A stretch of 64,000 nt of DNA from Woeseiaceae bacterium. Lineage in GTDB: Bacteria > Pseudomonadota > Gammaproteobacteria > Steroidobacterales > Woeseiaceae. Numbering within the stretch: position 1 is the stretch's first letter; each line of letters opens with the position of its first letter. The translations under genes and the position numbers were made by a program. Where the stretch lies: positions 62,001 to 126,000 of the forward strand of contig JANQGQ010000031.1 in the NCBI GenBank assembly GCA_028277185.1, in the 5' to 3' direction. Under the pieces are notes generated by a model. The model searched no databases. It was not told where the DNA came from and saw nothing but the letters and a program-made list of their open reading frames with translations. This document shows, piece after piece, positions 11,037-49,483 of this stretch.

Positions 11037-13024
11037 CAGGGTGTCGGCTCCTCGCCGCTCTCGGGCGGGCTGGTGAGGCTCTCGAGCGGCGGGATCGTGG
11101 CGCGTTCAACGTCAGGCATGAGCTGCACGCCCCGGCCGCGTTGACCCTCGAGCAGGTCTTCCATCATCCGGTACTTGGCGTTGGTTTCGGTGGCGATGCT
11201 TGCCGCGTCGCGCAGGATCTTGGGCCGGATGAACACGAGGAGGTTCGTCTTTATCGCTTCGGTGCGGCGGGCCCGAAACAGACTGCCCAGGAGCGGTAAC
11301 CTGCCGAGCACCGGTACGCGTTGCTCGCTCTCGCGGAGCTGGTCTTCGATCAGGCCGCCGAGCACGAGGATCTGCCCGTCGTCCACGATGACCGTCGTCT
11401 CGATGATGCGCTGATTCGTGATCAGGTCGACGGCGCCTTGGGCCGATTGCGCGATGCTCGATATCTCCTGCCGGATATCGAGCAGGAGCGAATTACCTTC
11501 GTTGATCTGCGGCGTGATGATCAGTTCGATGCCGACCTGCTGCCGCTGAACCGTCTGGAACGGGTTGACCGTCCCGCCGCCCTGGCCGCCCGTGTTGGTA
11601 AACGAGCCGGTGACGAAGGGTACCTCCTGACCGACGTTCAGCGTCGCTTCCTCGTTATCGGTCGTCACGACCGACGGGGTGGACAGTATGTTTGTGTCGG
11701 CATTGCCCTGCAGTGCCCTGAGCACGGCGGCGAAACTGATTCCGGAGTCGCTCAGCCGGCCCAGCCCAAAGGTGGCGCCCTCGCCGATGAGTCCGGTTGG
11801 ATCGGTAATGTTGCCGTCGCCGGCCGCGGCGGCGCCGGCCAGCTGCGTGACGCCGGGGCCGAAATCCGGAAAATTCGTCAGACTGATCGGCGTACTTGCG
11901 CTGTTGTCGTCGAAAACGGCCCAGGTCACGCCGAGATCGGCGGTCCGGTCGGCAATCACTTCGACGACGATCGCCTCGACCTGCACCTGCGCGCGCCTTA
12001 TGTCGAGCTTGTCGACGACGGTCATCATCGAGCGCATGATTTTCGGCGGCGCGTCGACGATCAGGGCGTTGGTTTGAGTGTCGGCCCAGACGCTGATCAG
12101 TTCGGCGCCGGGGCCGCCGGGGGCGGCGCCGGCACCCGCTGCGCCGGCAGTGGCGGCGCTCGCATACTGTTGCTGTAGCTTGGTCGCGAGCTCCTCGGCA
12201 TCCGCGTAGCGAAGGTAGCGAACCTGGGTATCGCCGCCTTCTTCGAGCGGCGTGTCGAGGTGCGCGACGAGAGTGCGCAGCCTGAGGCGCCCGCTCTTGT
12301 CGCCACCGATCAGGACGCTGTTCGTGCGCGCGTCCGCGACGAGGCTTGTCGTGACCGGTGCGCCATCGGCGCGCGGTGCCTGCGTCAGCGCGGTCAGCAC
12401 GCGGACGACTTCGGCCGCAGACGCGTTCTGCAGCGGCACGACCTCGATGTCGTCGTCGCTCGACTGGTCGATCCGCCGGATGATGCTGATCAGGCGTGCG
12501 ACGTTGCCCGCGCGGTCGGAGAGGATCAGCATGTTCGAACCCTGGTGCGCAACCATGTGCCCGTATTGCGGGATCAGCGGGCGAAGAATCGGTACGAGCG
12601 CCGTGGCGCCGACGTTTTCGAGCTGAATGACGCGCGTCACGATGTCGTCGTAGCCGGCCGTACCGCCTGAGCCCAGCGTGCCCCCGTACTGCCGCGCCGA
12701 TGCGTTCGGGATGATCTTGATGACGTCGCCGCTGCGCGCGGCGGTGAGTTGGTGTACCTCGAGAATGGACAGGAAGGCCTCGTAAAAAGCCTCCGGCGTC
12801 ATCGGCGTCGTCGACAGCATCGTTACGTTCTGCGCATTGACGCGCGGATCGATGATGTAGTTCTCCTGGGTGACGGCACTGACGGCTTCGACGATTTCCC
12901 GAATGTCAGCTTCCTTGAAGTTGGGCGTGATCGTCGCTGCCTGCTGCGCGAAGGCGCTGCCGGCCGGTGTCAGGATTGCCGTGAGCCAGAGCAGCAAGAT
13001 CTGCATTCGTAGATGTCGGGTCAT
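11036..13024 (-). CDS. gspD: Type II secretion outer-membrane secretin GspD
   Basis: GspD forms the multimeric outer-membrane channel through which folded proteins exit. The 662-residue precursor has a clear signal peptide (LLLWLTAILTPAGSAFAQQ, residues 10-28). The N0/N1-N3 periplasmic domains follow (N0 from about 33; N1 near VTRVIQLENVGATALVPIL). The C-terminal secretin domain (about 430-600) includes VPFVTGSF and VPVLGRLPLLGSLFR. A Gly/Ala-rich linker near residue 290 is a common disordered loop. It overlaps gspC by 4 bp and gspE by 1 bp. Confidence 0.95.
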   Translation of the reverse strand: MTRHLRMQILLLWLTAILTPAGSAFAQQAATITPNFKEADIREIVEAVSAVTQENYIIDPRVNAQNVTMLSTTPMTPEAFYEAFLSILEVHQLTAARSGDVIKIIPNASARQYGGTLGSGGTAGYDDIVTRVIQLENVGATALVPILRPLIPQYGHMVAHQGSNMLILSDRAGNVARLISIIRRIDQSSDDDIEVVPLQNASAAEVVRVLTALTQAPRADGAPVTTSLVADARTNSVLIGGDKSGRLRLRTLVAHLDTPLEEGGDTQVRYLRYADAEELATKLQQQYASAATAGAAGAGAAPGGPGAELISVWADTQTNALIVDAPPKIMRSMMTVVDKLDIRRAQVQVEAIVVEVIADRTADLGVTWAVFDDNSASTPISLTNFPDFGPGVTQLAGAAAAGDGNITDPTGLIGEGATFGLGRLSDSGISFAAVLRALQGNADTNILSTPSVVTTDNEEATLNVGQEVPFVTGSFTNTGGQGGGTVNPFQTVQRQQVGIELIITPQINEGNSLLLDIRQEISSIAQSAQGAVDLITNQRIIETTVIVDDGQILVLGGLIEDQLRESEQRVPVLGRLPLLGSLFRARRTEAIKTNLLVFIRPKILRDAASIATETNAKYRMMEDLLEGQRGRGVQLMPDVERATIPPLESLTSPPESGEEPTP

Positions 13025-39149: not shown

Positions 39150-40616
39150 TCATCTCCTGCGCCGTAAATCGAGCATGAGTCCTATCCCACCCATCAAGAC
39201 CAGACAAAACAGAACCACAAGCGACACGATCAAGTTCTGCGCCTCGCGCCCGAGCGGAAACAGGAAGTTCCATTTGTGGAGATAGGAAAAGCTCCATTGT
39301 TCTGGTTTCGCATGGTCGGGCGTGCGGTCGGCGAGCACGCCGCTCGTGGTGTCGACGAAGATCGTCGCGTTGACCGGGGCGCCATAGTCAAGCCGCCAGA
39401 CCGGCAGACGCTTGTTGCGGAAATCGTATTGCGGCCCAAACCGGGTGACGAGTTCGGCGTGGTGGATCGCGCTTCGTGAGACGCCGGTGAAGCGCTCGCC
39501 CAGCTGCAGAGCGATCTCGCGGTCGCCATCCTCGAACGGTGCGCCCGTCGCTGCGTCGATATATAGCGCTGGCCCTGAACGCTCGACGCCGTTAAAGCGG
39601 GCGTTGCGGATCTCCGACGGAGTTTCGGGGCCGCCGCGGCGGGGCGGCGCCAGCCCCAGGCGATAAAGAAGCCGCCCTTCGGCGTCTTCGATGATGGAAA
39701 CCGTCGATATGTTGAGCCCGGCGCTCAGTTCCGCCCATTGGTCCTCAATGGGGAATGTGACGCCAGCGAGGGTGATCGGCGGTGAAAGCGTAAGGGTTTT
39801 TACTGGCGGCGTCGCTGCATACTGAATGAGGTGAAAGAGTCCGCTCGACGCAAACATTAAAAGCGGCAGCGCCGCCGCGTAACCGGCGATGCGGTGCCAG
39901 CCGCGCATGCCGGGCGCGCGCGCCTTGCGGCGGATTAGCGCGATCATGGCGATTCCGGTGACCGCCAGCGCCAGGAGCGATCCGACGAACAGCCCCATCA
40001 GGATGACCCGCGCCCAGTCCGCCTGGGCGGGAAACCAGCTCCAGGTGTGAAACCAGCGAAAGCCGGTTTGCAGGACGGTTTTGAAGCTGTTGTCGACACC
40101 CGCCGCCGCATTGGTTTCCGTGTAGACATAGATGGCGAGATTGTCGGGCCTGTCGAAGGTGACCTTGTAGACCGGCAGCAGGCGATTGACCCATGGGTAG
40201 CTCGGCGTGAAATCGTGGATCCACTCGACGGCGCGCACCGGCGCCGTTGCGCGCGTGTAATGGCGCGCGAGAAACACGGCATGCGCTTCGTCATGGTTCG
40301 CAAGTTCCGCGCCGTCCTCGAGACGGAAATAGCGCCGCGGCGTCTGGGGGTCTTCCGTCACCTGCAGGAGGCTCCCGTTCTCCCCAGGGACGATGCGGAT
40401 GGCGGCGGCCTGCGTGACGCCCGCTTCGGCCAGAGTTTCATGGATCGGCCGGACGCCAGCGAGATCGACCGGATGAGAGGGCGGGTAGAACACCGCCTGC
40501 TGGGGCCCCCAGGTGGTCATGATCGGATGCAGGAGACCCGAGCCGCCCCAGAGCAACAGCCCGGTCCCGCCGAGTATGGCGAGGAGACGGTGCAGTTTTA
40601 TCGACAGGATGCGCAT
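39150..40616 (-). CDS. PepSY-domain membrane protein (metal-uptake associated)
   Basis: A 488-residue PepSY-associated transmembrane protein. Membrane segments are near 10-32 (LHRLLAILGGTGLLLWGGSGLL), 197-220 (VILMGLFVGSLLALAVTGIAMIA), 240-260 and 465-485. Large periplasmic loops carry PepSY units. Such proteins accompany TonB receptors and are thought to reduce or release metal from its carrier; paired His residues in the membrane segments (for example LHPIM and HLIQYA) could bind haem. The ATG at 40614-40616 has GGAGAG upstream and is preferred over a longer frame. It ends a minus-strand run behind a TonB receptor (29 bp). Confidence 0.8.
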   Translation of the reverse strand: MRILSIKLHRLLAILGGTGLLLWGGSGLLHPIMTTWGPQQAVFYPPSHPVDLAGVRPIHETLAEAGVTQAAAIRIVPGENGSLLQVTEDPQTPRRYFRLEDGAELANHDEAHAVFLARHYTRATAPVRAVEWIHDFTPSYPWVNRLLPVYKVTFDRPDNLAIYVYTETNAAAGVDNSFKTVLQTGFRWFHTWSWFPAQADWARVILMGLFVGSLLALAVTGIAMIALIRRKARAPGMRGWHRIAGYAAALPLLMFASSGLFHLIQYAATPPVKTLTLSPPITLAGVTFPIEDQWAELSAGLNISTVSIIEDAEGRLLYRLGLAPPRRGGPETPSEIRNARFNGVERSGPALYIDAATGAPFEDGDREIALQLGERFTGVSRSAIHHAELVTRFGPQYDFRNKRLPVWRLDYGAPVNATIFVDTTSGVLADRTPDHAKPEQWSFSYLHKWNFLFPLGREAQNLIVSLVVLFCLVLMGGIGLMLDLRRRR

Positions 40617-40645
40617 TATTTCTCTCCGTATGCGGAAGGGTTTCG

Positions 40646-42805
40646 TCAAAACGCGACGGAGAGGCCGCCGAAGACGGCGCGTCCCTGTCCCGGCGTGAAG
40701 ACCCGGGCGTTTTCGAGGGACTGGTTAGCGACGGTCGAGACGTTGGAGATATAGACCTCGTCGGTCAGGTTCTCCGCAGACACGAACAGGCGCGCATTGT
40801 CAGTGATGTCATAACCCGCCGTGACGCCGACGAGCTCATATCCGGGAACCTCGACCGTATTGGCGAAGTCGACGAACGGCCCTTCCGGAATCCATCGGAA
40901 GTTAACGGCGGCATACCAGCGGTCTCTTTCAAGGCGCAGTTCGGAGACGTGAACCTGCTCCGGGACGCCCGCGAGACGGTTGCCGTCGAAGGCGAACACC
41001 TGGTCATTGAGGTCCCGGGGATCACTTGCGAAGAAGAAGTCGTTATAGGTGTAGATGTTGCGCCAGATCAGCTCGCCGCCCGTCTCCTCGAGGGCTGCCG
41101 GCGTCAGAACGAGATCGACGCCAAGCTCGATTCCCTGATGGACCGTTTCATCGGCGTTGAAAGTGGCGGAGACGAAGCTGCCGAAGCGCGGTTGCGCCAG
41201 ATCGATGAACTCGTTCTCGACCCAACTGCGGTAGACGGAGAAATCCCATGCGATCCGGCCTTGTTGCCCGCGTGTCCCGGCCTCGACGGTCCAGGCTTCC
41301 TGCGCTTTGAGCGGGGTGAAGTCGAGCACGCCGCCTGCTGTGAGGTCCGATATCCCCGCCGGTTCGAAACCGCGGTTGACGTTGAAGAAAAGCTGGGCGT
41401 TGTCGTCGACGTCCCAGAGCAGGGCAAAGCGGGGATTGATCTGGGATTCGGTCACTTCGCCGTCGACGGCGTTGAGGACATTGTCGCTGTCGCGACGGGT
41501 GTTGAGATACTGAAGGCCGATAATGGCGGTTACGTCTTTGGTGAGCGAAATCTCCGCCTGTCCGTAGACCAGCACATTGCGGGCGTCCTGATCGCTGCGG
41601 CTCGAAAGAGTGCCGCGTTGGCCGAAGTCGTTCTCGAACCGGCGGGCATCGTTGTCGGACGCGGCGATCTCTGCGCCGATGACCCAGTCGACATAGACCC
41701 CCGCGACGTCGCTGTCGCCGGCAAGCCGCAGGAAGCCGCCAATCTCATGCTCTTCCTGCACGATAATGCCGGCGAACCGGGTGATCGCGTGATCGAGATC
41801 GCGCAGCGCATACCATGCGCCCGCCTCCAGCGTCAGTGCATCGAGCGGAACGACCGTTTTGTTGGCGATGCGGAAGACATCGAGATTCCGGTCCCAGTCG
41901 TCCGCTTCGGGACCCGGGTCCAGCACCGTCACCGGCCCCCTTGGAAAGAAGGGACCGATCGTTACCGGACGGCCCGCCGCCGTTGGATTGGCGAGAGCGT
42001 CGTCGAGCGCCTGGCTCCCCGCCAGTTCGAAATTGTCGCTGAGCGCGGTGAGATAGACGCGCGTTTCGGCGCCGTTGTCGAACTTGCGGCCAAGATTGGA
42101 ATGTCCGTACACGCCGCGCACATCGGAGTGGTCGCGATAGCCGTCCGAGCGCAGGCCCGTCACGCCACCATAGAAATCCCACTTGTCTCCGGCGTGGGCG
42201 ACGCTTGCGCTCGCGCGTGCCGTGGCGAAACTTCCCCCTTCGGCGCGAAACGTGAAGGCCTCCTCGCGCGTGCGGCCCGTGGGCGTGACGATATTGATCG
42301 CGCCGCCGAGAGATGCCGCGCCGTAGCGCAGGCCGTTAGCGCCCTTGAAGACTTCGATATAGTCGATCGTCAGCGGATCGACTTCCTGAAATTCCGTGCT
42401 GCCGCTCGCCCGCGAGATCAGCACGCCGTCGCGACGCACGCTGATTCCCCGCCGCTCGAAACTGGAGTTGAGGCCTGATCCCCGGATGGAGATGCGGGTT
42501 TCGCGTTGCGCCGACGTGTCGGCAAAGACGCCAGGCGTGAAGATCAGCGTATCGCCGATGCTCTGGGCGAAATCGTCGAGAAAGACCTTCGCCTCCACCA
42601 GCCCGACGCCGCCGGGCACGCGTTCCAGTACATCGCGAGCCGCCGCCGCCCTTGGCGCGGTCAGGGAGGGTCGCTCTCCGATAACGGTGATTTCATCGAG
42701 GACGGTCTTCTGGCCGACGCCTTGCGCAAAAGTGCTGGCCGGCAGGTAAACGATAACGGCGCCGACAAGAAGGCGGGCCGCGAATGCAGCAGGTTTCGTA
42801 GTCAT
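40646..42805 (-). CDS. TonB-dependent outer-membrane receptor
   Basis: A 719-residue receptor. It has a signal peptide (LLVGAVIVYLPASTFAQ, residues 12-28), a TonB box (LDEITVIGE, about 36-44), a plug domain with RISIRGSGLNSSFERRG and IEVFKGANGLRYGAASLGGA, and a 22-strand barrel ending in Phe (GGLSVAF). No STN signalling domain is present. Position between a DUF2946 gene and a PepSY gene points to a metal chelate as substrate. The Zur-like operator upstream of the DUF2946 gene makes zinc the best guess; copper or an iron chelate remains possible. Confidence 0.88.
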   Translation of the reverse strand: MTTKPAAFAARLLVGAVIVYLPASTFAQGVGQKTVLDEITVIGERPSLTAPRAAAARDVLERVPGGVGLVEAKVFLDDFAQSIGDTLIFTPGVFADTSAQRETRISIRGSGLNSSFERRGISVRRDGVLISRASGSTEFQEVDPLTIDYIEVFKGANGLRYGAASLGGAINIVTPTGRTREEAFTFRAEGGSFATARASASVAHAGDKWDFYGGVTGLRSDGYRDHSDVRGVYGHSNLGRKFDNGAETRVYLTALSDNFELAGSQALDDALANPTAAGRPVTIGPFFPRGPVTVLDPGPEADDWDRNLDVFRIANKTVVPLDALTLEAGAWYALRDLDHAITRFAGIIVQEEHEIGGFLRLAGDSDVAGVYVDWVIGAEIAASDNDARRFENDFGQRGTLSSRSDQDARNVLVYGQAEISLTKDVTAIIGLQYLNTRRDSDNVLNAVDGEVTESQINPRFALLWDVDDNAQLFFNVNRGFEPAGISDLTAGGVLDFTPLKAQEAWTVEAGTRGQQGRIAWDFSVYRSWVENEFIDLAQPRFGSFVSATFNADETVHQGIELGVDLVLTPAALEETGGELIWRNIYTYNDFFFASDPRDLNDQVFAFDGNRLAGVPEQVHVSELRLERDRWYAAVNFRWIPEGPFVDFANTVEVPGYELVGVTAGYDITDNARLFVSAENLTDEVYISNVSTVANQSLENARVFTPGQGRAVFGGLSVAF

Positions 42806-42888: not shown

Positions 42889-43293
42889 TCAGAGAGAAAT
42901 AGAGGGAGGCGCCCGCAGGCCCAGCGGCGGCCCTTGCGGGCGATAAACGAAGTCAATTTCAAAGCATGACGGCGTTATGTCCTGACGCACCAGGACGAGG
43001 ATGTGAGACGCCGGTTGGTATTCCGGCAACGGAACACCCTGGACGAGGATGCAGAGCGGACAATGCGTGGTATCGGGATGATCGTCCTGCTGTTCACCGA
43101 AGAAGTCCCGCAGCATGGCTTCGGCTTCGGCGCGCGCCTCTTCGGAAACCGCTCCCGAAGGCACGCAGAAAAAGCCGCTGATATCGAGGTTCGGGCGGGC
43201 GGCAAGCGCCATCGGCGTCGCCAATTGCGCAAAAAGCGCAAGGACGACGAGAAAGTGTCCCCAAAAAGAAAAGAGATTTCTACGCCCGCTCAA
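42889..43293 (-). CDS. DUF2946-family protein
   Basis: A 134-residue protein of the DUF2946 type. It has an N-terminal hydrophobic segment (HFLVVLALFAQLATPMALAA), a CPLC motif in THCPLCILVQG and a conserved C-terminal tail of Pro and Arg residues (RPQGPPLGLRAPP). Family members usually sit beside TonB receptors for metals and are thought to be periplasmic or membrane-tethered. The start is TTG at 43291-43293, supported by GGAGG six bases upstream; no in-frame ATG is available. The gene is 83 bp before the receptor and opens the minus-strand arm of the module. Confidence 0.75.
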   Translation of the reverse strand: MSGRRNLFSFWGHFLVVLALFAQLATPMALAARPNLDISGFFCVPSGAVSEEARAEAEAMLRDFFGEQQDDHPDTTHCPLCILVQGVPLPEYQPASHILVLVRQDITPSCFEIDFVYRPQGPPLGLRAPPSISL

Positions 43294-43763
43294 CCCACGC
43301 CTCCAACAACGACATGATATGGCGCTTACAATCGCATAGGGATACTACGCTCACTATTGTTGCCGCGGCTGATGACGACGTGCGTTGTGAACGCCGCAGT
43401 CGAGGCGTTGACGATGGTATACCGAAAGTCCCGCCCGAATGTAGCTGATTTTTTCCCAAGACGCCGATCCGGGCTCGCCTCTTCAACGCCACCTGTACGG
43501 CATAGATTCGTTATGTAATAATATAACATTACGCTGTCGGGTGTACTTGGTTTGATGCATGGGCGAGGGGCGGCAGCGCACGATAAATGCACCGCAAACG
43601 ATCCAATGACTGACAAATAAAGCCGCGTTCATATTTGCCGGTTTGCGTCTGGCTCTCTCTTCGGAATTCGGAACGGTGCAACCACACGCCGCCCCGCTCG
43701 GGGCGCGCCGCTAACCATCCACGTTCAAACTCACTCTCTGACTAACTGGGAATAACTAAGAGC
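43294..43763. other. Divergent regulatory region of the metal-uptake module
   Basis: 470 bp with no convincing gene; only short frames with no family resemblance or ribosome-binding site. It contains the Zur-like palindrome listed separately. A perfect hairpin (CGCCCCG, CT, CGGGGCG) also lies at 43690-43705, about 60 bp before the plus-strand receptor. Its AT content around 43500-43560 is well above the neighbouring sequence, as expected for promoters. Confidence 0.6.
43510..43532. promoter_or_regulatory. Zur-box-like palindrome (zinc uptake regulator site)
   Basis: The left half GTTATGTAATA (43510-43520), centre A43521 and right half TATAACATTAC (43522-43532) form a palindrome with 9 of 11 paired positions. 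The known E. coli Zur operator has halves GAAATGTTATA and TATAACATTTC. The right half here matches at 10 of 11 positions and the left at 8 of 11. It lies about midway between the two divergent transcription units, 217 bp from the DUF2946 start and 231 bp from the receptor start. Zur with zinc would repress both arms. Confidence 0.65.
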
Positions 43764-45698
43764 ATGCGTATTAAAGGACATAAAATACTGCTGTCCGGCG
43801 TCGCCATTTTGCCGCTTTGCGGCGCTGCGTTCGCGATGGAAATGGTAGCCGTTGAAGAGATTGTTGTTACCGCAACGACTCGGGAAGCCAATTTGCAAAC
43901 TGCACCGGCGAGTGTTTCTGTTGTTGATCAGGAAGAATTGATACTGCGGGCCGCGGCCGATCTTGCGCAGGCCTTGCAGGGCGAAGCGGGCGTACAGGTT
44001 TCCGGCGTAGGTCAATCGCGTAACGGCATCAGCCTGCGTGGGATGCATGTTGAGCATACGCTGTTCCTGCTCGACGGGCGCCGCATTGCATCGACGAATG
44101 CGATTATTGCGCATAGTGACTTCGAATTGACGTGGCTGCCGCCGGCGGCTATTGAACGGATCGAGGTTGTGCGTGGCCCGCTTTCGTCGCTCTACGGTTC
44201 TGACGCGCTTGGCGGTGTGGTGAATGTCATCACGAAAAGGCCGGGTGATGAGCTGACGGGCGCAATCAGTCTCAATAACAGTACGCCTTACAATTCCATA
44301 GGTGGCGAGGAAGTTAACGCCAATTTTTATGTGTCCGCACCGCTGGTCGAAGGCAAACTGGGCGTTTCTGTTTTTGGCGATTACTTCGATCGCGCCGAAC
44401 TTGCAAGCGATCTGAATGATGCAGTCTCCAACGTTGAAGCCCGCGAAGCGGCGACTGGACGTGTCAACCTTGTGTTTACGCCAACAGATAATCAGCAGGT
44501 CGATCTTATCTACTCGATCAGCGACGACCAGCGCTGGCGCAACTTTCAGCAGGGGGCTTCAGTCTTTCGCGGTGAAGATGATGTCACCATGGAGCAAATG
44601 GTTTTGAGCCACAAAGGCGACTGGAGCTGGGGCGGCACGCAACTCAACATCTATCGCAACGATGCGCTGCGCATCAATCAGCGCGATGGCATGCCAGGCA
44701 CCCGCGATCAGCAGGTGATTGACACCGCCATTGACGGCTACACCAATTTCAGTATTGGCGACAGGCATCACATTACGATTGGCGGGCAGGTTCGCGATGA
44801 GTTGCTTGAAGACGAGTATGTTGCGGAAGACGGTGATATTCGAGCGCAGCATCGCGCTGTCTTTATCCAGGATGAGGTCCAACTGACTGATCAGTTATCG
44901 CTGGTCGGCGGCTTTCGGGCGGACCATCATAGTTTCTTCGGCTGGGAGACCAGTCCGCGTGCTTACATCGTGTACGAACCGATTGATGGGCTTGTAGTAA
45001 AAGGCGGTTACGGTGAAGGCTTCAAAGCGCCTAGCTTGCGTGACCTGTCTCCGGACTTTGACGTCGCCATCGCCGGCGGCGCCATCAGGGTGATCGGAAA
45101 TGAAAATCTGCAGCCTGAACTTTCAAGAACCTACGAAGCGAGCATTAGTTATCAAACGGATACGTGGTCCGTTTCCGGCGGCGTTTTCAAGAACGAATTG
45201 GAAAACCTGATAGACACAACATGTATCGCCGGCAATTGCGGCGTGTTTTTTGGTCGTACGCTGCAATTCAATAATGTCGATCTCGCGGAGATTCTTGGCG
45301 TTGAGGTGTCATTTAGCGCTGCATTGCCGGCGGGTTTTTCCATCGATGCCAACTATACGCATCTCGATACGGAGGATACGGCTACAGGGGAGAGGCTGCC
45401 AAACCGCGCTCGGCATAGCGCTTATGGCGCTTTGACGTGGACCGGCCAAAACGATCTGATGGTTCGGCTGCGTGCTCAGTATACCGGCGTTCAACGGGCC
45501 GAGGCTTTCGGCCCGGTGCAAATGTTGCCCGACTACGTTTTCGCCTTCGCGGAAGTGGCCTATCCGCTTCTCGATAACCTTCGGTTTGTCGCCGGCATAG
45601 ATAATGTCACGGATGTGCGGCTTGCAGAAGAATCGCCGCTGTTTGGCGTGAACATCCCGGGGCGTGAGTATCGCCTGTCCCTGTCATACGACTTCTAG
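43764..45698 (+). CDS. TonB-dependent outer-membrane receptor (probable zinc-uptake receptor)
   Basis: A 644-residue receptor of the vitamin B12/colicin-type group. It has a signal peptide (ILLSGVAILPLCGAAFAM, residues 8-25), a TonB box EEIVVTATTRE (about 31-41), a plug with ISLRGMHVEHTLFLLDGRR and IERIEVVRGPLSSLYGSDALGG, and a barrel ending YRLSLSYDF. Paired histidines in predicted loops (DRHHIT and DHHSFFG) could bind a metal. Its base composition is visibly more AT-rich than the 20-35 kb region. It starts 231 bp after the Zur-like site and is followed 37 bp later by an ABC transporter operon. Confidence 0.88.
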   Translation: MRIKGHKILLSGVAILPLCGAAFAMEMVAVEEIVVTATTREANLQTAPASVSVVDQEELILRAAADLAQALQGEAGVQVSGVGQSRNGISLRGMHVEHTLFLLDGRRIASTNAIIAHSDFELTWLPPAAIERIEVVRGPLSSLYGSDALGGVVNVITKRPGDELTGAISLNNSTPYNSIGGEEVNANFYVSAPLVEGKLGVSVFGDYFDRAELASDLNDAVSNVEAREAATGRVNLVFTPTDNQQVDLIYSISDDQRWRNFQQGASVFRGEDDVTMEQMVLSHKGDWSWGGTQLNIYRNDALRINQRDGMPGTRDQQVIDTAIDGYTNFSIGDRHHITIGGQVRDELLEDEYVAEDGDIRAQHRAVFIQDEVQLTDQLSLVGGFRADHHSFFGWETSPRAYIVYEPIDGLVVKGGYGEGFKAPSLRDLSPDFDVAIAGGAIRVIGNENLQPELSRTYEASISYQTDTWSVSGGVFKNELENLIDTTCIAGNCGVFFGRTLQFNNVDLAEILGVEVSFSAALPAGFSIDANYTHLDTEDTATGERLPNRARHSAYGALTWTGQNDLMVRLRAQYTGVQRAEAFGPVQMLPDYVFAFAEVAYPLLDNLRFVAGIDNVTDVRLAEESPLFGVNIPGREYRLSLSYDF

Positions 45699-45735: not shown

Positions 45736-46461
45736 ATGCTTGAAGCGAAGAATCTGTCGAAGTCGTTTGGCGCGGTGAACGCGCTGAACGATCTGAACCT
45801 CAGCGTTCAGGAAGGTGAAATCCTGTGCCTGTTGGGCGCCAATGGCGCTGGAAAGACCACGGCAATCAATTTGTTTCTTGGCTTTCTCGAGCCAAGCTCG
45901 GGCGAGGCGCTGATCGACGGTGTCGCTGCGCATCAGGACCCGGCAGGCACGAAAGCCAAACTCGGCTATATCCCTGAACAGGTTGCGCTTTATCCGCAGC
46001 TTTCCGGCCTCGAGAACCTCGATTACTTCCTCCGCCTTGCCGGGGTGAAGGCGAAAGAGACCGAGCTTCTGGAAGCGCTGGAAGCGGCCGGGCTCGAACG
46101 CGCCGCCGCCCGGCGCAAAGCGGGCACGTATTCCAAGGGCATGCGCCAGAAGGTGGGCATTGGTATTGCGCTCGCCAAAAAAGCGCCGGTGTTGTTGCTC
46201 GATGAGCCGCTCTCCGGTCTCGATCCGTCTGCGGCCAATGGTTTGTGTGGATCGTTACGACAGCTACGCGATAACGGGCGCGCGATTTTGATGGCCACCC
46301 ATGATGTATTCCGCGCCAAGGAAGTCGGCACAAGGATCGGCATCATGAAAGGCGGGTACCTTGTTGATCAGCTTGAAGCCGACAAACTGGATGCGCGCGA
46401 AATTGAGCAGATCTATCTCTCCCATATGCATGACGGCGCCGACGCCGCAGATGCAGCGTAG
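45736..46461 (+). CDS. ABC transporter ATP-binding protein
   Basis: A 241-residue ABC ATPase. It has Walker A GANGAGKTT (34-42), Q-loop near IPEQVALYP (79-87), the signature YSKGMRQK (132-139; a diverged LSGGQ), Walker B PVLLLDEPLSGLD (151-163) and switch His ATHD. The diverged signature is typical of ABC-2 type systems such as NosF/YhaQ. The start at 45736 has GGAAGCGAGA upstream. It is followed by two DUF3526 membrane proteins, and no periplasmic binding protein gene is present. The receptor upstream suggests a trans-envelope metal uptake unit. Confidence 0.9.
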   Translation: MLEAKNLSKSFGAVNALNDLNLSVQEGEILCLLGANGAGKTTAINLFLGFLEPSSGEALIDGVAAHQDPAGTKAKLGYIPEQVALYPQLSGLENLDYFLRLAGVKAKETELLEALEAAGLERAAARRKAGTYSKGMRQKVGIGIALAKKAPVLLLDEPLSGLDPSAANGLCGSLRQLRDNGRAILMATHDVFRAKEVGTRIGIMKGGYLVDQLEADKLDAREIEQIYLSHMHDGADAADAA

Positions 46462-46473
46462 GGAGGGACGGTG

Positions 46474-47898
46474 ATGATATCCGCGATTGCTCATAAAGAG
46501 CTGAAAACCTATTTGCGCAGCGGAGTCTTTCTTGCGGTAGCGGCGGCGCTGACCGGGCTGATCGTCATGTCCGTCATTCTGTCCGTTCAACGTGTAACCG
46601 CGTTTGAACATGAACGCGCAAGCGCCGTGGCTGCTGACCGCACTATCTGGGACGAGCAAGGCGTAAAGAACCCCCATGGCGCTGCGCATTTCGCTCGCTA
46701 TGCGTTCCGGCCGACGCCGACGCTGGCGGCCTTTGATCCGGGTGTTTCAGATTACGCCGGCATGGCCCTTTGGATGGAAGCGCATTATCAGAATCCGGCC
46801 GTTTTCCGCCGGGCTGAAGAGCGGGGAGATACCGGCTGGATCGCGTCGCTGTCGCCGGCCTGGATCCTGCAGACGATGACGCCGTTATTCATTTTTCTCG
46901 TGTTGTTCGGCGCCATCGCCGGGGAACGTGAAAGTGGGACCTTGCGCCAGAATGCAGCGCTCGGCGTCGGTCCGCGCGTCCTTGCCGGCGGCAAGCTTGG
47001 CGGCGCGGCGCTCAGCCTTGGCGTCGTTATTGCGCCGGTATTGGCAGGGGCGTTGTTTGTCGCCGCGGGTGCGGACGGGGCCGTAACCCTCGAGGACAAT
47101 GCGCTGCGGATCGCAGGCCTTACGCTCGCCTATGGGGTGTTTCTGTTGGCGGCCGGCGCTATTGCGATCGGTGTCTCCGCTCTCTGCCGGGACCGGCGCA
47201 GCGCGCTGATTGCGCTTGTCTCAATCTGGGCGGTGAGCTTTGTCTTTACGCCGCGCCTTGCCGGCGACATCGCCGCGAGCGCCCATCCTGAACCAGACGC
47301 CGGTGCGCTCACCGCGGCGCTACAGAAAGCGGCGCGTGGGCTCGGCGCCGATGCGGAGGCGATGGCGGCGTTGCCATCCGACGCCATGGCTGAATACGGC
47401 GTTGCGCAGATGGAAGACCTGCCGATCAACTTCCTCGGTTATCGCCTGCAAAGAGCGGAGGAGTACGCCTATGATCTGTTCGCAGAGATTTATGGGCAGC
47501 TTGGCGCAGTTCATGATGCGCAGGAGCGTATTTTGGATGCGGCGTCGGTCATCTCACCGGTGATTGCCGTAAAACGTCTGTCGAGCGGGCTTGCCGGTGT
47601 CGACCGTCTGCATCAACAAGCTTTCATTGATGGTGCTGAAGAGCATCGCCGCAAGATTGTCGAACAGCTCAATCGCGATTTCATGATCAATGGCGCAGAT
47701 GCGGTGGGCGCTGCTTATACCGCGGACGAAGATTTGTGGCGCCAGATCGAGGATTTTGATCATAGGGCATTGTCGTTCAGGGTTGTCGCGGGAAGCTACG
47801 TATCCAGCGCATTGGTCCTGCTTGCCTATCTGCTGGGGAGTATTGTCTTTGTCCGTTGGGCAGTGGCGCGCGCACAAAAGCGAGTAGTTCAGTCATGA
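46474..47898 (+). CDS. ABC transporter permease, DUF3526 type (first of two)
   Basis: A 474-residue ABC-2-like permease. An N-terminal helix (SGVFLAVAAALTGLIVMSVIL, about 17-37) is followed by a large extracytoplasmic domain. Helices then run between 140 and 270 (LFIFLVLFGAIAGERESGTLRQ marks the conserved coupling region), a second soluble part follows, and a last helix lies near 445-465. The DUF3526 architecture with an extracytoplasmic insert is seen here. The ATG at 46474 has GGAGG 7 bp upstream; a GTG at 46471 is less likely. Its stop overlaps the next start (ATGA). Confidence 0.82.
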   Translation: MISAIAHKELKTYLRSGVFLAVAAALTGLIVMSVILSVQRVTAFEHERASAVAADRTIWDEQGVKNPHGAAHFARYAFRPTPTLAAFDPGVSDYAGMALWMEAHYQNPAVFRRAEERGDTGWIASLSPAWILQTMTPLFIFLVLFGAIAGERESGTLRQNAALGVGPRVLAGGKLGGAALSLGVVIAPVLAGALFVAAGADGAVTLEDNALRIAGLTLAYGVFLLAAGAIAIGVSALCRDRRSALIALVSIWAVSFVFTPRLAGDIAASAHPEPDAGALTAALQKAARGLGADAEAMAALPSDAMAEYGVAQMEDLPINFLGYRLQRAEEYAYDLFAEIYGQLGAVHDAQERILDAASVISPVIAVKRLSSGLAGVDRLHQQAFIDGAEEHRRKIVEQLNRDFMINGADAVGAAYTADEDLWRQIEDFDHRALSFRVVAGSYVSSALVLLAYLLGSIVFVRWAVARAQKRVVQS

Positions 47899-49322
47899 AA
47901 TCGATCACTTACTTTCTGGAGCGCAGAACCTTTTTGTTCGCCGCGCCGGGAATTGCGCTTGTCGCGTCGCTGTTCATCCTGGGCGGTTATGCAGCTTACA
48001 GCGGCAAGTCGCAGGTAGCGCGCATAACGCAAGCCCAGGCCGATTACGTGCAAATCCGTGATGATGCTCTCGACGCCTGGCGTGACGAGCTGGTCAGGGT
48101 TGAAAGCGCGTCGGGTGCGTCCGCGCCGGCCTATGCCGCAAGGCCGATGAATATCCGCAAGCCGGCTGTGGCGCCGGCCGCGCCGCTCGGCGATTTTGCA
48201 ATCGGGGCGAGTGATCTGTTGCCGGCGCAGACGGAGCTTTCCGCCTGGGTGAATCCGGCCGATCTCTTCAATGAATATGAATTCGCCAACCCCACATTGC
48301 TCAGTGTCGGACGTTTTGATCTGTCGATGATGGTGGTGCTTTTGTTGCCTTTGCTGATGGTCGCCGCGTCATTCGATATCTGGTCTGCAGAACGCGAAAG
48401 CACGCGGGCGCGATTGGTCGCGGCGCAGGTCGGCGCCGTGAAGCCGCTGATATGGAGCCGGCTGATATTCCGCAATGCGCTGATCTGGGGCGTCTTCACG
48501 TTGGTTGCGCTGGCAGCCGGGTTGATGGCGCCGGGGGCTGCGGGGCTTTCTTCGGCCCGGCTTGCCAATCTGGCGGGCTGGATTGGCGCAGCCTGGATCT
48601 ACGGCGCTTTCTGGTTTGCGCTCATCGCGTTTGCGGTGGCTTACTTCCGCCGCAGCGAGACCATTGCGGCCACGCTGTTTGCCCTCTGGGCGGGCTTTGT
48701 ATTTCTCACCCCCGCCATTGGCGGGGCGGTTAGCGAGGCGCTTTATCCGCCGCCGTCAAAGCTTGCGGCGCTTTCCGAAATGCGTGACGCGAAGTCTGAG
48801 GCGGGGAAGGCGACTGCCGAGTTGACCAAAGGGTTTCTCGCCGACCATCCGGAGATGACCGTGAGCGATGACGATGTGCCTTTCTACTATGCCGGCACAT
48901 GGCTCGCAAATCGCGAGGCGGCCACACGCACAGCGCCAATCATGCGCGCTTTCGAAGAAAGCCGCCAGCAACGCCAGGAGACTATCAATCTGTTGCAGTA
49001 TCTGTCGCCAGCGGTGATCGCAAACAGAGCGCTTCTATCCTTTGCAGGCGGCGACGTGGATCGCTATCGCGCCTATCAGGCCGAAGCGCGCGCTGCGCTG
49101 GCTGACTTATCGGGGCGGATTGGCCCGGCGGTCGTTGCTAAACAGCGTCTGTCATTGGAGGCATATGATGCGATAGCGCCTTTCGCCTTCACGGAGACCA
49201 ATGCGGGCGACAAAGCCCGCAATCTCGCCGCGCCGGCTGCATTCCTGTTGGCCCTTGCCCTTGCACTTGGGTGGGGTGCCAGGCGCAGATTAGGCGCGCC
49301 TTTGGAGAAAATATTGCTCTAG
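47895..49322 (+). CDS. ABC transporter permease, DUF3526 type (second of two)
   Basis: A 475-residue paralogue of the preceding permease with the same layout: N-terminal helix (LFAAPGIALVASLFILGGYAAY), periplasmic domain, a helix cluster with MMVVLLLPLLMVAASFDIWSAERESTRARLV (conserved ERE-S-R coupling motif), a second soluble domain, and a final helix before a basic tail. Both proteins presumably pair to form a heterodimeric channel with the ATPase. It is the last gene of the plus-strand metal unit and ends 71 bp from the tRNA-Ser gene. Confidence 0.82.
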   Translation: MKSITYFLERRTFLFAAPGIALVASLFILGGYAAYSGKSQVARITQAQADYVQIRDDALDAWRDELVRVESASGASAPAYAARPMNIRKPAVAPAAPLGDFAIGASDLLPAQTELSAWVNPADLFNEYEFANPTLLSVGRFDLSMMVVLLLPLLMVAASFDIWSAERESTRARLVAAQVGAVKPLIWSRLIFRNALIWGVFTLVALAAGLMAPGAAGLSSARLANLAGWIGAAWIYGAFWFALIAFAVAYFRRSETIAATLFALWAGFVFLTPAIGGAVSEALYPPPSKLAALSEMRDAKSEAGKATAELTKGFLADHPEMTVSDDDVPFYYAGTWLANREAATRTAPIMRAFEESRQQRQETINLLQYLSPAVIANRALLSFAGGDVDRYRAYQAEARAALADLSGRIGPAVVAKQRLSLEAYDAIAPFAFTETNAGDKARNLAAPAAFLLALALALGWGARRRLGAPLEKILL

Positions 49323-49392: not shown

Positions 49393-49483
49393 TGGCGGAG
49401 AGGGTGGGATTCGAACCCACGAAGGGCTATTAACCCTTGCTGGTTTTCAAGACCAGTGCATTCAACCGCTCTGCCACCTCTCC
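49393..49483 (-). tRNA. tRNA-Ser (anticodon UGA)
   Basis: The minus strand folds as a class II tRNA: acceptor GGAGAGG/CCTCTCC, D arm, anticodon stem CTGGT/ACCAG with loop CTTGAAA (anticodon TGA), a long variable arm (AAGGGTTAATAGCCCTT) and a T arm containing GGGTTCGAATCCC. A G discriminator and an encoded CCA (49393-49395) complete 91 nt. It reads UCA and related serine codons. Its 3' end faces the accessory metal-uptake module. Confidence 0.97.

Follow-up and report, generated by a model that had tools for sequence, protein, structure and literature searches.

The 23-bp palindrome at positions 43510 to 43532 of the window, by which we mean the whole 64,000-nucleotide stretch of DNA that was analysed, is very probably a Zur operator belonging to the rightward of two divergent metal operons, a predicted zinc module that is probably shared with alphaproteobacteria by horizontal transfer. 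The leftward, predicted copper operon appears to be separate and merely adjacent, and the two arms are probably neighbours rather than one regulon. The site is 216 bp from the start of the DUF2946 gene that heads the left arm (43293) and 231 bp from the start of the TonB receptor gene that heads the right arm (43764). Two registers of the operator were recognised:

43510 to 43532, no strand assigned: Zur-type operator, a 23-bp palindrome reading GTTATGTAATAATATAACATTAC
43505 to 43527: weaker overlapping register of the same operator, 5 bp leftward

The earlier note on this DNA had counted 18 matches to the Zur consensus in 22 positions and 9 palindromic pairs of 11, and direct counting of GTTATGTAATAATATAACATTAC against GAAATGTTATANTATAACATTTC gave the same values. 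On the informative positions of ATGTTATANTATAACAT the site scored 15/16. Its core, TGTAATA-A-TATAACA, has the 7-1-7 arrangement of the 23-bp Zur palindrome (TGTTATA-N-TATAACA) and agrees with the Zur half-sites at 13 of 14 positions. When the whole 4.41-Mb genome was scanned with up to three mismatches to ATGTTATANTATAACAT, three matches were obtained. One is the window site, with a single mismatch, and the others are overlapping registers of a second place. These are also the only two genomic places at which 13/16 or more was reached, and the window site is the top Zur-type site of the genome. The reversed control pattern likewise gave three matches at this setting, so the scan discriminates only at zero or one mismatch. 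Because the control equals the hit number at three mismatches, we place the evidential weight on the one-mismatch match and its context. Palindromy by itself is commonplace, since 23 of the 23-mers in the window attain 9/11, and this could suggest an AT-rich palindrome that arose by chance. We find chance scarcely credible as an explanation, given that a first-order Markov model predicts 0.0007 sites at the 15/16 level in 4.41 Mb and that the site is retained in another organism, as described below.

As a further measure we built a weight matrix from eight boxes beside zur, ZnuD-like and ZigA genes of several genomes, with the window site excluded. The ZigA assignments exceed the strict NCBIfam cut-off. 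The window site scored 30.9, within the range of the training sites (28.3 to 38.7); elsewhere in the window the highest-scoring separate place reached 14.3. The training boxes had first been located by consensus search, which makes the matrix partly circular, and the score of 30.9 is corroboration of the site, short of a fully independent test. Together, the core match, the matrix score and the genome-wide rank bear out the earlier identification of the palindrome as Zur operator-like.

The genome encodes three Fur-family proteins: a typical Fur, an Irr/PerR-like protein and one for which Zur is the best NCBIfam model. The earlier note had named the absence of a zur gene, or a differing sequence at other Zur sites of the genome, as grounds for giving up the identification. 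A zur homologue is present at C7:317957-318316; its score of 100 bits, under the strict cut-off of 167, counts against our preferred reading, although Zur is its top model. Nor do the other sites differ, as the same box is found before the zur operon (L037:6125-6147) and, as a double overlapping box (L037:11708-11735), upstream of an adjoining TonB receptor gene that begins at 11803. We call this receptor ZnuD-like on the basis of its best model, NF038289, with 308 bits under a strict cut-off of 950. The proposal to rank the window site against known targets could be followed in part. The site ranks first genome-wide, but the comparison with znuABC and a second L31 lacks its targets, as ZnuA and CobW_C are absent from the genome and L31 is single, with no second copy.

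The zur homologue comes after genes for a MerC-like protein, an ABC ATPase, a permease of the MacB/FtsX type in which a long stretch is rich in His, and a DUF3299 protein. These genes and zur (L037:6273-10359, G000:C7) are co-directional behind the Zur-type box as a merC-zrg-DUF3299-zur operon, the permease stretch being rich in HDH, and likely form a second zinc transport operon. We take this operon to resemble the zrg genes of Vibrio. In two Woeseiaceae MAGs a small gene lies between a Zur box and DUF3526 ABC genes (L094:3336-3791 and L098:586-1041). It belongs to the MerC family in L094 (Pfam) and is near-identical in L098. The zrg-zur operon in the genome of the window is arranged likewise, and MerC may recur as a companion of Zur.

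We also considered that a different member of the Fur family, either Fur itself or the Irr/PerR-like protein, might bind the box and that it would control iron or peroxide genes. The genome does encode Fur and an Irr-like protein, and the right-arm receptor is CirA-like, of the siderophore-receptor class. Classical Fur 7-1-7 half-sites served as the comparison standard for the core, which agrees with them at about 7 of 14 positions as against 13 of 14 for the Zur half-sites. The occurrence of the same box before zur, ZnuD-like and ZigA genes also argues against this explanation, and we regard it as very unlikely.

The right arm, to which we assign the Zur operator, consists of four genes:

43764 to 45698, plus strand: TonB-dependent receptor in the ZnuK position, CirA-like, 644 aa (Plug and barrel; 84% identical in Eilatimonas)
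45736 to 46461, plus strand: ABC ATPase in the ZnuG position (PF00005; 88% identical in Eilatimonas)
46471 to 47898, plus strand: ABC-2/DUF3526 permease 1 in the ZnuH position (PF12040, PF12679; 89-93% identical in alphaproteobacteria)
47856 to 49322, plus strand: ABC-2/DUF3526 permease 2 in the ZnuI position (PF12040, PF12679; 88-91% identical in alphaproteobacteria)

The true start of permease 2 is probably the ATG near 47895. The best PDB match of the receptor was the colicin I receptor. A TonB receptor is thus accompanied by an ABC ATPase and two ABC-2/DUF3526 permeases, and a Zur box is kept in the promoter region of the orthologous module in Eilatimonas (L090:5937-5959). The layout and the box support the prediction of a Zur-type zinc module, of the znuK-znuGHI type, for the right arm. 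Among 14 control genomes, DUF3526 was found in Caulobacter only, and none of the papers in the library searched mentions DUF3526 together with zinc. The same genome carries a second module of a TonB receptor, an ABC protein and two DUF3526 proteins (L041:6719-12620, G000:C20), which is without a Zur box.

DNA similarity to Eilatimonas starts at about 43504, roughly 6 bp to the left of the box, covers the box and its right flank, and runs rightward only. In the alignment TGTWATAANNTAACA is retained in both the window and Eilatimonas, and the box is conserved ahead of the orthologous operon despite a diverged surrounding leader. This comparative evidence already contradicts a chance origin. Because the homology starts next to the box and continues rightward, we assign the operator to the right-arm cassette; because the Eilatimonas box is, in addition, at the same place, the operator probably arrived together with that cassette. 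In Eilatimonas, boxes precede the orthologous module, ZigA and a second module of the DUF3526 type, and another box lies between zur and the gene for a ZnuD-like receptor. In other lineages boxes occur before DUF3526 modules at L045, L046, L049, L094, L098, L156 and L159. L106 has a box upstream of its module, and L092 has one that separates a zur-like gene from a divergent DUF3526 module. In an automatic scan of 72 DUF3526 modules, six had at least 14/16 matches, the window module being one of them, compared with none for the reversed pattern. By the automatic test a strong box was absent from 65 of the 72 scored modules, including the second copy in this genome. Since most scored modules lack a strong box, this module type is not uniformly under Zur, and this counts against our reading, as does the result of a promoter scan, which found no consensus sigma-70 promoter between the two arms.

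The host is gammaproteobacterial, though the right arm is nearly unchanged relative to alphaproteobacterial loci. Its DNA is 87% identical to that of Eilatimonas milleporae and 92% identical to that of an alphaproteobacterial MAG (L089), with protein identities of 84-89% and 91-97%, respectively; the DUF3526 permeases of sampled relatives are just 26-43% identical to those of the right arm. The simplest reading is that the cassette was probably acquired by horizontal transfer, with the donor and the direction of transfer presumed from these identities. In relatives, serS, an SDR gene, tRNA-Ser(UGA), a phosphoglycerate-mutase-like gene, YjbQ and Bcp are close together. In the window, about 22 kb (27290-49393) lie between the SDR gene and the following tRNA gene, and both arms are inside this interval:

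49393 to 49483, minus strand: tRNA-Ser(UGA), 3' end towards the right arm, edge of an island hotspot (ARAGORN; synteny in relatives)

The synteny predicts that 27290-49393 is a variable island at the 3' end of tRNA-Ser(UGA). No attachment repeat, that is, no copy of the tRNA 3' end, was found within the window, and no integrase was identified in the island. In L089 the module likewise adjoins tRNA-Ser(UGA). Contamination of the contig was rejected as the source of the alphaproteobacterial match on the basis of genus-typical synteny on both flanks (ftsK-rarA-serS-SDR on one side and tRNA-Ser-PGM-YjbQ-Bcp on the other). Two genomes of the same genus have partial tRNA-Ser(UGA) duplicates beside the intact gene (L173:8512-8584 and L178:14350-14422), which suggests repeated integration at this tRNA.

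The left arm consists of three genes:

42889 to 43293, minus strand: cruR-like DUF2946 gene, a predicted copper-responsive upstream ORF (PF11162)
40646 to 42805, minus strand: TonB-dependent receptor in the crtA position (Plug and barrel; 81% identical in the same-genus genome G138, with the same neighbours)
39150 to 40649, minus strand: PepSY_TM protein in the crpH position (PF03929; 73% identical in G138)

The DUF2946 protein has CPLC at residue 78 and RAPP at residue 127, with 45 residues between them and RAPP 4 residues from the C terminus. It is encoded by the first gene of an operon with a TonB receptor and a PepSY_TM protein, and the order is the same in G138, where the three-gene operon is elsewhere in the genome (46, 81 and 73% identical for DUF2946, receptor and PepSY_TM protein). 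In a PDB search the receptor matched YncD/PqqU best, with no CrtA entry among the matches returned, and we liken it to CrtA by its position in the operon. The PepSY protein had no meaningful PDB match. Upstream of the G138 operon (locus L081), the closest relative of the left arm, there is no Zur box, the best score being 4.1 compared with 28-39 for the model sites. A perfect 8-3-8 inverted repeat, TTTGTATT-TTC-AATACAAA, is present upstream of the G138 cruR homologue (L081:8480-8510). Because of the CruR motifs and their spacing, the operon order and the box-free relative, we favour a copper reading of the left arm, which is better explained as a predicted copper operon of the cruR-crtA-crpH type than as a zinc operon.

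The earlier note had proposed instead that the shared operator represses both divergent arms and unites them into a single zinc-starvation regulon. The position of the site, roughly midway between the first genes, fits this proposal; an AT-rich palindrome could overlap -10 elements on both strands, and CruR operons also need a promoter, possibly near the site. Against it are the presence of both functional CruR motifs at conserved spacing, the lack of a box before the same three genes in G138, the rightward-only homology of the box region with Eilatimonas and the behaviour of the Bordetella counterpart, which is copper-responsive and hardly affected by zinc (PMC9426467). We consider joint repression of both arms unlikely. 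The zinc reading of the two arms is supported for the right arm, as a Zur-type module, and not supported for the left, and the operator gives insufficient reason to drop the copper reading there. There is also a small chance that the Zur operator of the cassette later came to govern the cruR promoter too, so that initiation would be under zinc control by Zur and elongation under copper control by CruR.

In the explanation that we prefer, zinc-loaded Zur would occupy the operator and keep the rightward operon's promoter blocked; under zinc scarcity it would be released, so that the znuK-znuGHI-type zinc-scavenging module would be made. The distance of 231 bp between box and receptor gene implies a long leader, which counts against this explanation. 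Operator and module would have entered jointly, by horizontal transfer shared with Eilatimonas-like alphaproteobacteria, into the island beside tRNA-Ser(UGA). The left arm would be a copper-starvation operon controlled after transcription start by a copper-sensing nascent DUF2946 peptide. The sequence itself shows the site, the regulator gene, the shared box, the boundary of homology and the CruR motifs, and it is from these that we infer binding, repression, the responses to zinc and copper, and the direction of transport. A lineage without ZnuA, in which high-affinity zinc uptake is otherwise hard to assign, is thereby provided with a clear predicted Zur site and a predicted zinc-uptake module, and an operator seems to have moved from one proteobacterial class to another along with its operon. 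The locus also warns that a single operator between divergent metal operons does not prove a shared regulon.

Both arms can be compared with known systems. In Caulobacter crescentus, znuK (a TonB receptor gene) and znuGHI (ABC-2 type), CC1517-CC1520, lose their repression when zur is mutated, and Zur binds them in vitro (PMC4176598). The ABC-2 pair, which might import metal, serve metallophore traffic or have some other role, is termed a putative uptake system in Caulobacter. The earlier note had supposed that without the site the ABC arm would normally be called an unknown exporter; this name was not needed, as the layout of TonB receptor and ABC-2 genes is a known Zur target in Caulobacter. 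The right arm resembles znuK-znuGHI in layout and family, with a TonB receptor beside an ABC ATPase and two ABC-2 permeases and a Zur box upstream. In Caulobacter, znuK and znuGHI are described as having their own promoters around the Zur box (PMC4176598), whereas in the right arm the receptor and ABC genes are co-directional behind a single box. The module of Eilatimonas milleporae (L090) has the same gene order as the right arm, the protein identity given above and a Zur box at the corresponding position, but neither a copper operon nor a tRNA-Ser gene adjoins it. In Bordetella pertussis, CruR is a DUF2946 protein in which 45 residues separate the CXXC motif from RAPP. It heads an operon with a TonB receptor and a PepSY_TM protein, cruR-crtA-crpH, which copper turns off via Rho termination and on which the zinc effect is slight (PMC9426467, PMC12914433, PMC13038864). 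The left arm has a DUF2946 upstream ORF, a TonB receptor and a PepSY_TM protein in identical order, and differs in the gap after cruR (83 bp compared with 162 bp in B. pertussis) and in the distance from RAPP to the protein end (4 residues compared with 3).
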